Origin: Advenella mimigardefordensis DPN7
GTDB taxonomy: Bacteria > Pseudomonadota > Gammaproteobacteria > Burkholderiales > Burkholderiaceae_B
DNA length: 64,000 nt
Assembly: GCF_000521505.1 (NCBI RefSeq)
Contig: NZ_CP003915.1
Coordinates: 1,612,001-1,676,000 of the forward strand
Reading direction: 5' to 3'
Part shown: in pieces, positions 21,367 through 42,046 of the stretch
Position numbering within the stretch: position 1 is the first letter of the stretch
Layout: every line of letters begins with the position of its first letter
Notes under the pieces: model-generated
Databases searched by the model: none
What the model was told of the DNA's origin: nothing
What the model saw: the letters and a program-made list of their open reading frames with translations, nothing else
Translations under genes and position numbers: made by a program

Positions 21367-21383
21367 TTGGCACGGAAGTTGCT
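21367..21383 (+). promoter_or_regulatory. Sigma-54 promoter of gfa-flhA
   Basis: TTGGCACGGAAGTTGCT matches the -24/-12 consensus TTGGCACRNNNNTTGCW at every fixed position, with GG-N10-GC spacing. It lies 99 bp before the gfa ATG. The remainder of the 344-bp gap 21139-21482 has only weak stem-loops (GCACCTG/CAGGTGC) and no gene. Confidence 0.85.
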
Positions 21384-21482
21384 TGAGTGGTGGTTATTGC
21401 CTGCCCACATGTATGCTGTCACGTACGGCGGGGAAGGTGCCCGATTTAGTCAGAATCATCCATCACCAATCCGGAGACATAT

Positions 21483-22052
21483 ATGAGTTACAATATCCAT
21501 CCAGCCGTTAACAATGGCGTTCAGGCTAGTACAGACAATAACTTTACCGGTGGCAAACTGGTTTGCAATTGCGAGACAGACAGGGTTGAAGTAACCGTGA
21601 ACTCGCAATCGGCTCATAATCACCTTTGTGGTTGCTCCAAATGCTGGCGGCCTACCGGCGCCCTGTTTTCACAGGTTGCTGTCGTTCCCAAAGAGTCGGT
21701 GCAAGTGACCGCGAATGGCGACAAACTCAAAGTGGTTGATGAATCAGCAGCGATCCAGCGTCATGCGTGCACCGGTTGTGGCGTTCATATGTATGGCCGC
21801 ATTGAAAATACAGGGCATCCATTTTATGGGCTCGATTTCATTCATACAGAGCGTTCTCCTCAAACCGGCTGGTCTGCCCCTACTTTTGCCGCTTTTGTCT
21901 CCTCTATCATCGAAACAGGTACTGATCCTGCCGAAATGAGTGGCATTCGTGCAAGACTGAACGAACTGGGATTGCCTCCCTATGATGCGCTGTCGCCAGC
22001 GTTGATGGACGTTATCGCAACACACGTTGCAAAATCGAAAAATGCATCTTAA
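21483..22052 (+). CDS. gfa: S-(hydroxymethyl)glutathione synthase Gfa
   Basis: Speeds condensation of formaldehyde with glutathione. 189 aa of the GFA fold. Zinc-binding Cys residues are in CNCETD, CGCSKCW and CTGCGVHMYGRIE. A CCGGAGAC ribosome site precedes the ATG. It is 15 bp from flhA and downstream of a consensus sigma-54 promoter, so formaldehyde removal is likely induced with methanol oxidation. Confidence 0.95.
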   Translation: MSYNIHPAVNNGVQASTDNNFTGGKLVCNCETDRVEVTVNSQSAHNHLCGCSKCWRPTGALFSQVAVVPKESVQVTANGDKLKVVDESAAIQRHACTGCGVHMYGRIENTGHPFYGLDFIHTERSPQTGWSAPTFAAFVSSIIETGTDPAEMSGIRARLNELGLPPYDALSPALMDVIATHVAKSKNAS

Positions 22053-22067
22053 GCAGGAGTTGAAGTA

Positions 22068-23180
22068 ATGGAAACCAAAGCCGCTGTTGCCACCAAAGCC
22101 GGAGCGCCGCTGACTATCGAGACGGTTCAGCTGGACGGTCCGCGTGCATTCGAAGTGCTGGTGGAAATCAAGGCATCGGGCGTATGTCATACAGACATGT
22201 TCACGCTGTCCGGTGATGATCCGGAAGGAATCTTTCCGGCTATTCTCGGCCACGAAGGTGCCGGTGTGGTCGTAGAAGTCGGGGCTGGCGTGACCACGCT
22301 CAAACCAGGCGATCACGTGATTCCGCTTTATACGCCTGAGTGCCGCAATTGCGTATTCTGCCTTTCACGCAAAACCAATTTGTGTGGCGCCATTCGTGAA
22401 ACGCAGGGTAAAGGTCTGATGCCTGATGGCACCAGCCGTTTCAAATTGAATGGTAAGGATGTGTTCCACTACATGGGCACGTCTACCTTTTCTAATTACA
22501 CAGTAGTACCGGAAATTGCACTTGCCAAAATCCGTGAAGACGCGCCATTTGAAAAAGTCTGCTATATCGGCTGCGGCGTCACAACGGGTGTGGGTGCGGT
22601 TATCTACACGGCTAAAGTTCAGCCAGGCGATAAGGTCATTGTGTTCGGTCTGGGCGGTATTGGCCTGAACGTCGTACAGGGTGCGCGTCTGGCGGGTGCT
22701 GATATGATTATCGGCGTGGATATTAATCCTGCACGCGAAGAGCTGGCCCGTAAATTCGGCATGACGCATTTTGTCAATCCGAAAGAAGTGGAAGGCGATA
22801 TCGTTCCCTATTTGGTTAGTCTGACCAAAGGCGGCGCCGATCATACCTTTGAATGTATCGGTAATGTCAATCTGATGCGCCAGGCGCTGGAGTCCTGCCA
22901 TAAAGGCTGGGGTAAGAGCACCGTTATCGGCGTGGCCGGAGCCGGTCAGGAAATCTCCACAAGGCCGTTCCAGCTGGTTACCGGTCGCGTCTGGCAGGGT
23001 TCGGCCTTCGGTGGCGCACGCGGTCGTACCGATGTACCGAAAATTGTTGACTGGTATATGGAAGGGAAGATCAACATTGATGATCTGATCACACATGTGA
23101 TGCCAGTTGAGAAGATTAACGAGGCATTTGATCTGATGCACGCAGGTACATCAATTCGTTCTGTCGTAACGTTCGACTGA
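22068..23180 (+). CDS. flhA: S-(hydroxymethyl)glutathione dehydrogenase (class III ADH)
   Basis: NAD-dependent zinc dehydrogenase that oxidises S-hydroxymethylglutathione to S-formylglutathione. 370 aa, normal length. Catalytic zinc region GVCHTDMFTLSG and GHEGAGVV, the structural-zinc Cys cluster CRNCVFCLSRKTNLC and the Rossmann motif GLGGIGLNV are seen. The expected partner S-formylglutathione hydrolase is not encoded next to it. Confidence 0.96.
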   Translation: METKAAVATKAGAPLTIETVQLDGPRAFEVLVEIKASGVCHTDMFTLSGDDPEGIFPAILGHEGAGVVVEVGAGVTTLKPGDHVIPLYTPECRNCVFCLSRKTNLCGAIRETQGKGLMPDGTSRFKLNGKDVFHYMGTSTFSNYTVVPEIALAKIREDAPFEKVCYIGCGVTTGVGAVIYTAKVQPGDKVIVFGLGGIGLNVVQGARLAGADMIIGVDINPAREELARKFGMTHFVNPKEVEGDIVPYLVSLTKGGADHTFECIGNVNLMRQALESCHKGWGKSTVIGVAGAGQEISTRPFQLVTGRVWQGSAFGGARGRTDVPKIVDWYMEGKINIDDLITHVMPVEKINEAFDLMHAGTSIRSVVTFD

Positions 23181-23270
23181 TGCAGTAACCCGGCTCGCAG
23201 TCTGGCTGTCGGCCGGGTGTTTATAAAGGCGGTATAACTGTTGTGTCGGTACGGACGCAACAGCCAAAAA

Positions 23271-23298
23271 GAAGGGGCTCTTTTTATTGAGCCCCTTC
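23271..23298 (+). terminator. Terminator after gfa-flhA
   Basis: A perfect 10-bp stem GAAGGGGCTC ... GAGCCCCTTC with a T-rich loop lies 90 bp past flhA. Downstream is CGTCATTTTC, only weakly T-rich. Confidence 0.65.
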
Positions 23299-40902: not shown

Positions 40903-41001
40903 GTCTTCCTCCGGGGTTATCGTTATATATTTCAGAACACGAATTAAAGGTCTAACGGGAACATAGCACGAGCTGCATGCATATGGTCATAGAAAGCTAT
41001 A

Positions 41002-41018
41002 AGCACAATTCATGCCAA
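41002..41018 (-). promoter_or_regulatory. Sigma-54 promoter of xoxF
   Basis: On the minus strand TTGGCATGAATTGTGCT has GG-N10-GC and differs from the consensus at two positions. It is 100 bp upstream of the xoxF ATG, nearly the same distance as at gfa. The remaining part of the 570-bp gap 40903-41472 holds no gene I believe; a weaker plus-strand GG-N10-GC (41266-41282) precedes the AhpD-like gene. Confidence 0.75.
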
Positions 41019-41472
41019 TCTTCCCGGCGCTCTGGCGGACTCGTGCAAATGGCGGTGTCTGGACGTTTCAGGCACACTCCGGTTCGTGCATCTGCGTATT
41101 TCGGTCATCATGTTCATATATATATTTCGGAAAATGTACCGCAAGCAGAACACGGTCAGGACATTATGTGTCGTTTTAGGACAGGCAACGTGTGCACAGG
41201 GTTTCTACCAGATCTGCGGGTCGGTGATAAATAGCGAAAACATTCATTGAAATGAAAGCAGGTGTTTGGCATGATAGGCGCTCGGTTGTGTATTGTCTGG
41301 CTGCATTCTGTATTAACTGCAGTAGTCAATCGCATTGATCGCCTGGCATTGCGCAATTGCCTGGTGGTAAAAGGATAATCACAACTGAAATCAAGATCCG
41401 TTTCGATGGTGACAGTCGCTGCCATGCACAGATGGGTCATAATGGTAATCACATCTCACAGGAGAAAATGAT

Positions 41473-41772
41473 ATGTATGATATGAAGCATCTTGCTCACA
41501 TGAAGGATCTTGATGATGGTGCACCGCAAGCCATGCAGGCGTTCCGCGCGTTTGATCAGGCTGTGTTTGCCGATGGGGCCCTGAGTGCAGTGCACAAACA
41601 GATTATCGCGCTTGCTGTCGCGGTCACGACACAGTGTCCTTATTGCATTGCAATACACACCAAGGAAGCGCGTGCGGCAGGCGCGACCGATGCTCAGCTT
41701 GCCGAAGCTGCGCTGGTCGCTGCGGCGATCCGTGCCGGCGGTGCGGTGACGCATGCCACGCATATGTTTTGA
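41473..41772 (+). CDS. AhpD/carboxymuconolactone decarboxylase family protein
   Basis: 99 aa, single all-helical AhpD-like domain. The redox pair CPYC with downstream His (QCPYCIAIHTKEA) suggests peroxidase or disulfide activity. GGAG lies 8 nt before the ATG. It is divergent from xoxF and could protect against peroxide or formaldehyde stress; exact substrate unknown. Confidence 0.85.
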   Translation: MYDMKHLAHMKDLDDGAPQAMQAFRAFDQAVFADGALSAVHKQIIALAVAVTTQCPYCIAIHTKEARAAGATDAQLAEAALVAAAIRAGGAVTHATHMF

Positions 41773-42029
41773 TCGCTTGCGGTGCTGTTGCTCGTCGCAA
41801 GCGAAGGCTGCAGCGTCAGGGCCACCGGGCTGACGTGATGGTCGGCTTGTTGTGGCAGTGGTGCTCAGGAACTGGCACAGAGTGTGACATGGTTGTGCCG
41901 AAAACTGGTAGCGCTACTCCTGACTGCTGGTGTAACGTAGCCTGCCACCGTGCCGCAGGCGCGTTGCTGAACGAGGTTGTGCTGGTGATGGGCGCAAACT
42001 GTCGCGCCTGGAGCGATTTTCATCCGGGC

Positions 42030-42046
42030 GTGGCACAATAATTGCT
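42030..42046 (+). promoter_or_regulatory. Sigma-54 promoter of the small Cys protein
   Basis: GTGGCACAATAATTGCT matches the consensus at all but the first base, GG-N10-GC correct. It is 112 bp before the ATG at 42158. The rest of 41773-42157 is non-coding, with one 8-bp stem CGCTTGCG/CGCAAGCG just after the AhpD-like gene. Confidence 0.82.

Follow-up and report, generated by a model that had tools for sequence, protein, structure and literature searches.

Sigma-54 control of a quinoprotein dehydrogenase has a precedent in Azospirillum brasilense, where exaA is governed by sigma-54 together with a LuxR-type regulator (Singh et al. 2017, as cited in excerpts of PMC6115532 and PMC12826043). In the oxidation of one-carbon (C1) compounds, MmoR is a sigma-54 activator of methane oxidation that carries a GAF domain in two species, and MmoG is reportedly needed for MmoR binding in Methylosinus (PMC5874634, in excerpt). 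A sigma-54 regulator with a GAF domain has also been drawn in a xox gene map, in a figure legend (PMC11845868, in excerpt), and MxbDM, MxcQE, MxaY and PedS2-PedR2 control genes for pyrroloquinoline quinone (PQQ)-dependent dehydrogenases, including xoxF or pedH (excerpts of PMC11845868 and PMC6115532). No description of sigma-54 control of xoxF was found in the part of the open-licence literature that was covered. Here we analyse a stretch of 64,000 nucleotides from Advenella mimigardefordensis DPN7 (NZ_CP003915.1, positions 1,612,001 to 1,676,000), referred to as the window, in which four -24/-12 elements precede gfa-flhA, a kinase-like gene (kin), xoxF and the gene of a small Cys protein (cys), in an island that also encodes a GAF-AAA+-Fis enhancer-binding protein. 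Judged from the DNA, the four elements are probably sigma-54 promoters of a single C1-oxidation regulon under the linked activator.

The locus resembles exaA in that a PQQ-dependent alcohol dehydrogenase gene is the target, sigma-54-dependent there and predicted to be so here. It differs in having a linked GAF-AAA+-Fis activator, in a member of the Burkholderiales, in place of the LuxR-type regulator, and in gathering xoxF or mxaF, gfa-flhA and small genes into one presumed regulon; no LuxR-type regulator was seen among the scanned window genes, and no genome-wide search was made for one. Since exaA already provides a case of a quinoprotein dehydrogenase under sigma-54, what is new, as far as the excerpted sources go, is the C1 variant in Advenella. 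With MmoR and MmoG the locus shares a sigma-54 activator in C1 oxidation, but the target of MmoR is soluble methane monooxygenase (PMC5874634, in excerpt). With the published xox map it shares the GAF-containing sigma-54 regulator, for which the legend gives no promoter, regulon or mechanism (PMC11845868, in excerpt). MxbDM, MxcQE, MxaY and PedS2-PedR2, as the excerpts present them, are lanthanide-linked two-component systems, whereas the candidate regulator of the island is an enhancer-binding protein.

All four elements have the exact GG-N10-GC spacing and stand where the original prediction had placed them (coordinates of these and other features are given in Table 1). The sigma-54 consensus is TGGCACG-N4-TTGCW, and the elements are close to it, as expected of sigma-54 promoters: when the 17-mers of the window, on either strand, are scored against this consensus, the gfa, Cys and kinase sites take the top three places, and the xoxF site, with a score of 14.0, equals five others and lies under two at 14.5. 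Counted from the end of the 17-mer, the ATG follows after 98 bp for gfa, 98 bp for xoxF and 110 bp for the Cys gene, so that the predicted range of 99-112 bp for three of the promoters was correct to a base or two; for the kinase-like gene the distance is 51 bp. In the 4.76-Mb genome the pattern TGGYAYRNNNNNTGCTT has 20 matches, and none in a reversed control. The local enrichment that had been proposed as a check is present, with 4 of the 20 matches within these 20.7 kb (Poisson 2e-6 under random placement), although it is partly circular, the pattern having been derived from the four window sites. Further matches lie 5' of glnA, of the P-II gene glnK with amtB, of urtA and of a gene for a second PQQ alcohol dehydrogenase (L034), whose own strong site is at G000:C1:1257821-1257837 (-). 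As glnA, P-II-amtB and urtA are classical sigma-54 targets and the same pattern finds them, with 20 matches against none in the control, we take the elements as more than chance; some of the matches fall within reading frames and may be chance. The genome has a single rpoN match (TIGR02395, 431 bits).

The proposed sigma-54 regulon joining xoxF, gfa-flhA and two small genes draws support from conservation within the genus. Ten Advenella genomes were searched for the island, and its part from the activator to cbbR is present in six of them (G000, G001, G003, G006, G007 and G009); in the remaining four, neither a XoxF match at E 0.001 nor a close activator was found. TGGCAYGGAAGTTGCTT is the sequence of the gfa element throughout the six island-bearing genomes, which also share an invariant block surrounding a candidate activator site 111-128 bp upstream of it. 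The element of the kinase-like gene, TGGTAYGRATATTGCTT, is likewise kept in 6/6, and the xoxF and Cys elements are unchanged in the three genomes that have these genes (G000, G001 and G007). In these three, a xoxF with the motif DEWDYDG lies further downstream of the kinase-type element. In G003, G006 and G009, where the best XoxF match reaches just 50-51%, the gene behind the kinase-type element encodes a dehydrogenase with DEWDYAG and 47-48% identity to XoxF, adjoined by a distant xoxJ/mxaJ-like gene. G006 has the sole annotated cluster of this kind, continuing with solute-binding, cytochrome, MoxR-type, DUF58 and two VWA proteins; we presume that the solute-binding protein is of the mxaJ type and that the arrangement is that of mxa clusters, and a small subunit was not identified in this cluster. 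Three Advenella species are thus predicted to carry a calcium-type mxaF in place of the stretch from the kinase-like gene to xoxF, behind the same promoter and the same upstream near-palindrome. Since promoter and upstream site also precede calcium-type mxaF, control seems tied to the C1 pathway and not to the metal. What is controlled seems to be C1 oxidation as a whole and not just XoxF, most likely by one enhancer-binding protein that works through sigma-54 irrespective of the metal in the dehydrogenase. A sigma-54 site for pqqA was also sought in its conserved upstream region in the six genomes, where only a sigma-70-like TTGACA is kept. In G007 (L122-L123), many island genes, the activator included, align in split, frameshift-like pieces for which sequencing error is likely.

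From at least 591 relatives of XoxF, our survey beyond Advenella took the best 80 and, after dropping L148, whose locus ends at a contig end, covered 79 named loci. The loose pattern NGGYRYR-N5-TGC occurs at -230 to -80 on the sense strand of 57/79 loci and on the antisense strand of none; a consensus score of at least 13 is reached in 50/79, as compared with 2 on the antisense strand and 3.5 expected from random stretches. At least one site-bearing locus is found in 22 of 36 hand-made groups, where Pseudoduganella is scored as a miss merely because its site, at -93, straddles the edge of the range. The regulon is further supported by Pollutimonas and Candidimonas, in which gfa, cys and xoxF each have their own site about 100 bp upstream, as in the window (the gfa site of Pollutimonas is the weaker CGGCTCGGTTTTTGCTA), and by three Massilia loci (L143, L144 and L208), which have a site 5' of the flhA heading a flhA-gfa-(cys)-xoxF run. 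The Massilia loci were considered as counter-examples and rejected as such, xoxF being distal in the run. A separate cys promoter is not general, since only 9 of 66 cys homologues with sufficient upstream sequence score at least 13.

The other line of support is the activator. Its location in the island and its intact GAFTGA agree with the original prediction, though the gene lies outside the 21367..42046 span given there. It is an enhancer-binding protein by its Sigma54_activat AAA+ domain, GAFTGA loop, Fis helix-turn-helix and sensory GAF domain; its start codon is uncertain, as the open reading frame may begin at 16427, and searches used 14268-16316. Activators with the GAF-AAA+-Fis order are known as the AcoR/DhaR type. 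The window protein resembles this type in domain order and in PDB matches to AAA+ enhancer-binding proteins, with a weak match to the DhaR-type 4lrx over residues 31-302, and differs from it in its separate clade, its GTNGMGTC-type GAF motif and its C1 gene neighbours. A tree of 64 rows has a clade of 33 (support 100/100) that holds the window activator and four genus-mates, 24 of the 29 activators linked to XoxF outside Advenella, and four others; outside it are L056 and L055 of the window's own genome, G199 and the activators of the genus of G058. Of the 19 named loci whose activator has GAFTGA, 15 entered the tree, together with 14 genomes, G058 included, chosen by eye from match lists for an activator on the XoxF contig; some genomes or loci across the samples may share genus or species. 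The motif GTNGMGTC is found in the GAF domain of 30/33 clade rows, and its Cys, residue 144 of the window activator counted from the ATG at 16322, in 32/33 as compared with 0/31 of the others. Three of the four others in the clade come from genomes outside the XoxF match list. In G183 the activator adjoins an SBP56-SCO1-MauG operon (L291 5121-8615), which we take to be that of a methanethiol oxidase and which is preceded, at a distance of about 110 bp, by a sigma-54 site. In G377, sigma-54 sites stand 5' of a Complex1_51K-molybdopterin oxidoreductase-FdhD run that we read as formate-dehydrogenase-like, of SCO1-folE2 and of the clade activator gene itself. In G066 the activator adjoins a Cys-protein homologue on a contig of 8 kb; a Cys homologue also adjoins the clade activator of G062, where XoxF is on another contig. 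Four PQQ dehydrogenases that are more distant and have the Asp of the lanthanide type (L131 in G037, L134 in G021, L132 and L133 in G060) have a sigma-54-like site scoring 14.5-16.5 and, on the same stretch, a GAFTGA activator from outside the clade.

The state of the GAFTGA loop goes together with the presence of a site. Among XoxF-linked activators outside Advenella with GAFTGA, leaving out loci whose activator is cut at the locus edge, 24/27 have a site, 21 of them at xoxF and 3 before a heading flhA (21/27 if only sites directly 5' of xoxF are counted). Of six XoxF-linked activators with broken loops (G176 GGIAAA; G058 and G186 GEITGT; G148 GEVTGT; G105 GATPGA; L211 deleted) none has a site; Fisher's test gives 3e-4 for 24/27 vs 0/5, with L211 not included and kinship ignored. 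The broken-loop activator of G176 falls inside the clade, and L211 was outside the tree sample. In G058 (L130), whose linked activator no longer has GAFTGA, a sigma-70-like TTGACC-N17-TGTTAT stands upstream of xoxF.

A candidate binding site for the activator, TGT-N12-ACA, was found by eye in the invariant blocks of three promoters, those of gfa, kin and xoxF, its centre lying 119-182 bp ahead of the sigma-54 elements. When the three 200-bp regions were searched automatically, the same three 18-mers came out as the best triple (score 115), and in leave-one-out scans, which ranked distinct places across the window, the held-out site came about sixth for gfa, third for xoxF and sixth for kin. 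The copy upstream of kin or mxaF, TGTCACGCATGCGTCACA, is intact in 4/6 genomes, with one base altered in G009 and one end altered in G007. The element recurs in other genera: a matrix of the three sites was run over 69 regions ahead of sigma-54-like sites at the named loci, and 12 of them reach at least 12 bits, as compared with 0.6 expected from mononucleotide shuffles, and 8 of these 12 strong matches are in loci whose activator belongs to the clade. Conserved blocks at 41240-41280 (5' of xoxF) and 41860-41915 (5' of the Cys gene) match no assigned element; the latter holds the inverted repeat GGCACA...TGTGCC.

Mechanistically, the activator, encoded 3' of pqqBCDE, would bind the TGT-N12-ACA sites and loop to RNA polymerase-sigma-54 waiting at -24/-12, thereby opening the gfa-flhA, kin and xoxFGJ promoters. 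The Cys gene would also be opened, less certainly so because a good upstream site is missing there. The trigger would be a C1 compound sensed by the GAF domain. That this signal is formaldehyde or an adduct is a weaker proposal, which we hold at somewhat below even chances; it is suggested by two clade members, the neighbour of the SBP56 operon in G183 and, in G377, that of the formate-dehydrogenase-like and pterin genes, and by the GAF cysteine private to the clade.

Several observations weigh against this reading. The loose pattern and the range of the survey were fixed after a first look at the loci, 27 of the 57 positive loci belong to Caballeronia or Paraburkholderia, and the groups without a site include Methyloversatilis, Ferrovum, Methylibium, Azohydromonas, Ramlibacter and several metagenome-assembled genomes. 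Massilia L151, Ramlibacter L201 and G199 have GAFTGA and yet no site at xoxF or the operon head. Among 16 XoxF genomes with usable upstream sequence and no linked activator, one (G203) has a clear site and one (G422) a weak one. Four of the six broken-loop cases (G058, G148, G186 and G105) are from one genus and lie outside the clade, which leaves two or three independent cases of loss. As for the upstream element, one of 150 random region triples scored as high as 115 (mean 100.4, standard deviation 3.0), and upstream of the Cys promoter there is a conserved block, yet a good TGT-N12-ACA copy is missing. The element was also not found upstream of five more distant dehydrogenase genes (G058, G060a, G060b, G037 and G021) or of the second PQQ alcohol dehydrogenase gene, and is therefore not claimed there.

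The main rival explanation is that the promoters are driven wholly or partly by another enhancer-binding protein of the genome, for instance the AcoR-like L056 or an NtrC-type protein under nitrogen limitation, while the island activator serves other genes. The genome offers candidates, with nine Sigma54_activat matches of which six exceed 200 bits, and L056-like matches (37-38% to the query) are present in the same six members of the genus, a further point against the linked activator; the sigma-54 site of the second PQQ alcohol dehydrogenase and the gap at the Cys promoter fit this explanation as well. On the other hand, 24/29 XoxF-linked activators from elsewhere group with the window activator and none with L056, and 8/12 of the strong upstream matches accompany a clade activator. 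Tree and motif thus argue against another activator, least so for the Cys gene, and we consider this explanation unlikely overall.

It is more improbable still that the elements, though real, are minor and that xoxF is mainly under a sigma-70 promoter and, as in Methylobacterium, a two-component system responding to lanthanides or methanol. Known xoxF control is by MxbDM, MxcQE and MxaY (PMC11845868, in excerpt), sigma-54 sites are missing at certain XoxF relatives, and G058 has its sigma-70-like sequence; yet the sense-to-antisense count of 57 vs 0 at XoxF loci and the retention of the site ahead of either xox-side or mxa-side genes speak for a principal role, and no two-component system turned up among the scanned window genes, no genome search having been made for one. 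As to chance matches at the 54.6% G+C of the window, degenerate GG-N10-GC patterns are common and the search pattern was built from the sites themselves, but the empty reversed control, the 6/6 or 3/3 conservation amid diverging flanks and the recurrence at xoxF in 22/36 groups leave this explanation next to no probability; a chance origin was rejected on the reversed, antisense and shuffle controls.

The genes of the island run in the order activator, pqqEDCB(A), aminopeptidase-like gene, gfa-flhA, Calvin-cycle operon with cbbR, kin, cytochrome b561, beta-propeller protein, unknown gene, xoxJ-xoxG-xoxF, AhpD-like gene and small Cys protein, where the pqq gene names, and pqqD in particular, are presumed from position. 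An extra Asp in a DEWDYDG-type motif is the mark of lanthanide enzymes; this residue, membership of the PQQ_enz_alc_DH family and xoxG- and xoxJ-like neighbours identify the predicted product of xoxF as a lanthanide-type methanol dehydrogenase. Homologues of xoxG, xoxJ and the unknown gene at 36524-37309 reappear in other xox loci. The kinase-like gene of the original prediction has its promoter site, but its protein is only a weak match to amino-acid kinases, with glycine motifs that we presume to be degenerate; some homologues are named aspartokinase-like or MfnE-type. The methanofuran/tetrahydromethanopterin route that this gene suggested was dropped, as no Fae match was found in the genome. 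In the Calvin-cycle part, CbbX and a HAD-type phosphatase domain are fused in one 577-residue frame (29007-30740, -); in G001 and others the two align as separate pieces in different frames.

Table 1. Features of the window discussed in the text (positions count from the first nucleotide of the window; elements and sites are predictions).
Feature	Position	Strand	Evidence or remark
GAF-AAA+-Fis enhancer-binding protein	14268..16322	-	Pfam; intact GAFTGA; GAF motif GTNGMGTC; 3' of pqqBCDE
pqqB, pqqC, pqqD, pqqE	16522..19661	-	Pfam domains for B-, C- and E-type proteins
pqqA-like gene, 24-residue peptide	19725..19799	-	upstream region kept in six Advenella genomes
Candidate activator site TGTATCGTATTCTGAACA	21240..21257	+	upstream of gfa, within block invariant in six genomes
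Sigma-54 element TGGCACGGAAGTTGCTT	21368..21384	+	5' of gfa-flhA; top score of the window
gfa, S-(hydroxymethyl)glutathione synthase	21483..22052	+	TIGR02820, 324.8 bits, above cut-off
flhA/adhC, S-(hydroxymethyl)glutathione dehydrogenase	22068..23180	+	TIGR02818, 623.8 bits, above cut-off
Candidate activator site TGTCACGCATGCGTCACA	33817..33834	+	near-palindrome upstream of kin or mxaF
Sigma-54 element TGGTACGAATATTGCTT	34008..34024	+	5' of kinase-like gene
Kinase-like protein (kin)	34076..34702	+	weak AA_kinase, Pfam 28.8 bits (cut-off 24.9); distant to MfnE
Cytochrome b561; beta-propeller protein	34877-35434; 35464-36411	+	3' of kinase-like gene; co-transcription putative
Unknown gene of the xox run	36524-37309	-	
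xoxJ	37315-38256	-	TIGR03871, above cut-off
xoxG	38331-38933	-	cytochrome match, sub-threshold
xoxF, lanthanide-type methanol dehydrogenase (predicted)	39055..40902	-	TIGR03075, 751.7 bits; best PDB match 6oc5 XoxF; DEWDYDG
Sigma-54 element TGGCATGAATTGTGCTT	41001..41017	-	5' of xoxFGJ; identical in G001 and G007
Candidate activator site TGTACCGCAAGCAGAACA (as read on + strand)	41135..41152	-	upstream of xoxF, within block kept in three genomes
Sigma-54 element TGGCACAATAATTGCTT	42031..42047	+	5' of Cys protein gene; identical in G001 and G007
Small Cys protein	42158..42565	+	signal-like N-terminus; no Pfam family; homologues reappear in xox loci

Regulation of xoxF has been said to need more study and is expected to be species-specific (review PMC11845868, in excerpt), and the arrangement described here offers a testable idea of how xoxF is activated outside the Methylobacterium and methanotroph models. 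The arrangement recurs and is concrete: promoters and candidate binding sites can be named, a single activator is linked to them, and there are natural cases of loss. It also places lanthanide-type and calcium-type methanol dehydrogenase genes at one chromosomal place, behind one conserved promoter and upstream element. More boldly, and at somewhat less than even chances, we propose that the activator clade with the GTNGMGTC-type GAF domain might serve as the C1 master switch in many members of the Burkholderiales and in some Gammaproteobacteria, one that would perceive formaldehyde or a thiol adduct through the GAF Cys and turn on whatever C1 module is present, be it xoxF, mxaF, gfa-flhA, an SBP56 operon or formate dehydrogenase. 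If this is true, such a switch would let lanthanide and calcium methanol dehydrogenase clusters swap behind one promoter without rewiring.

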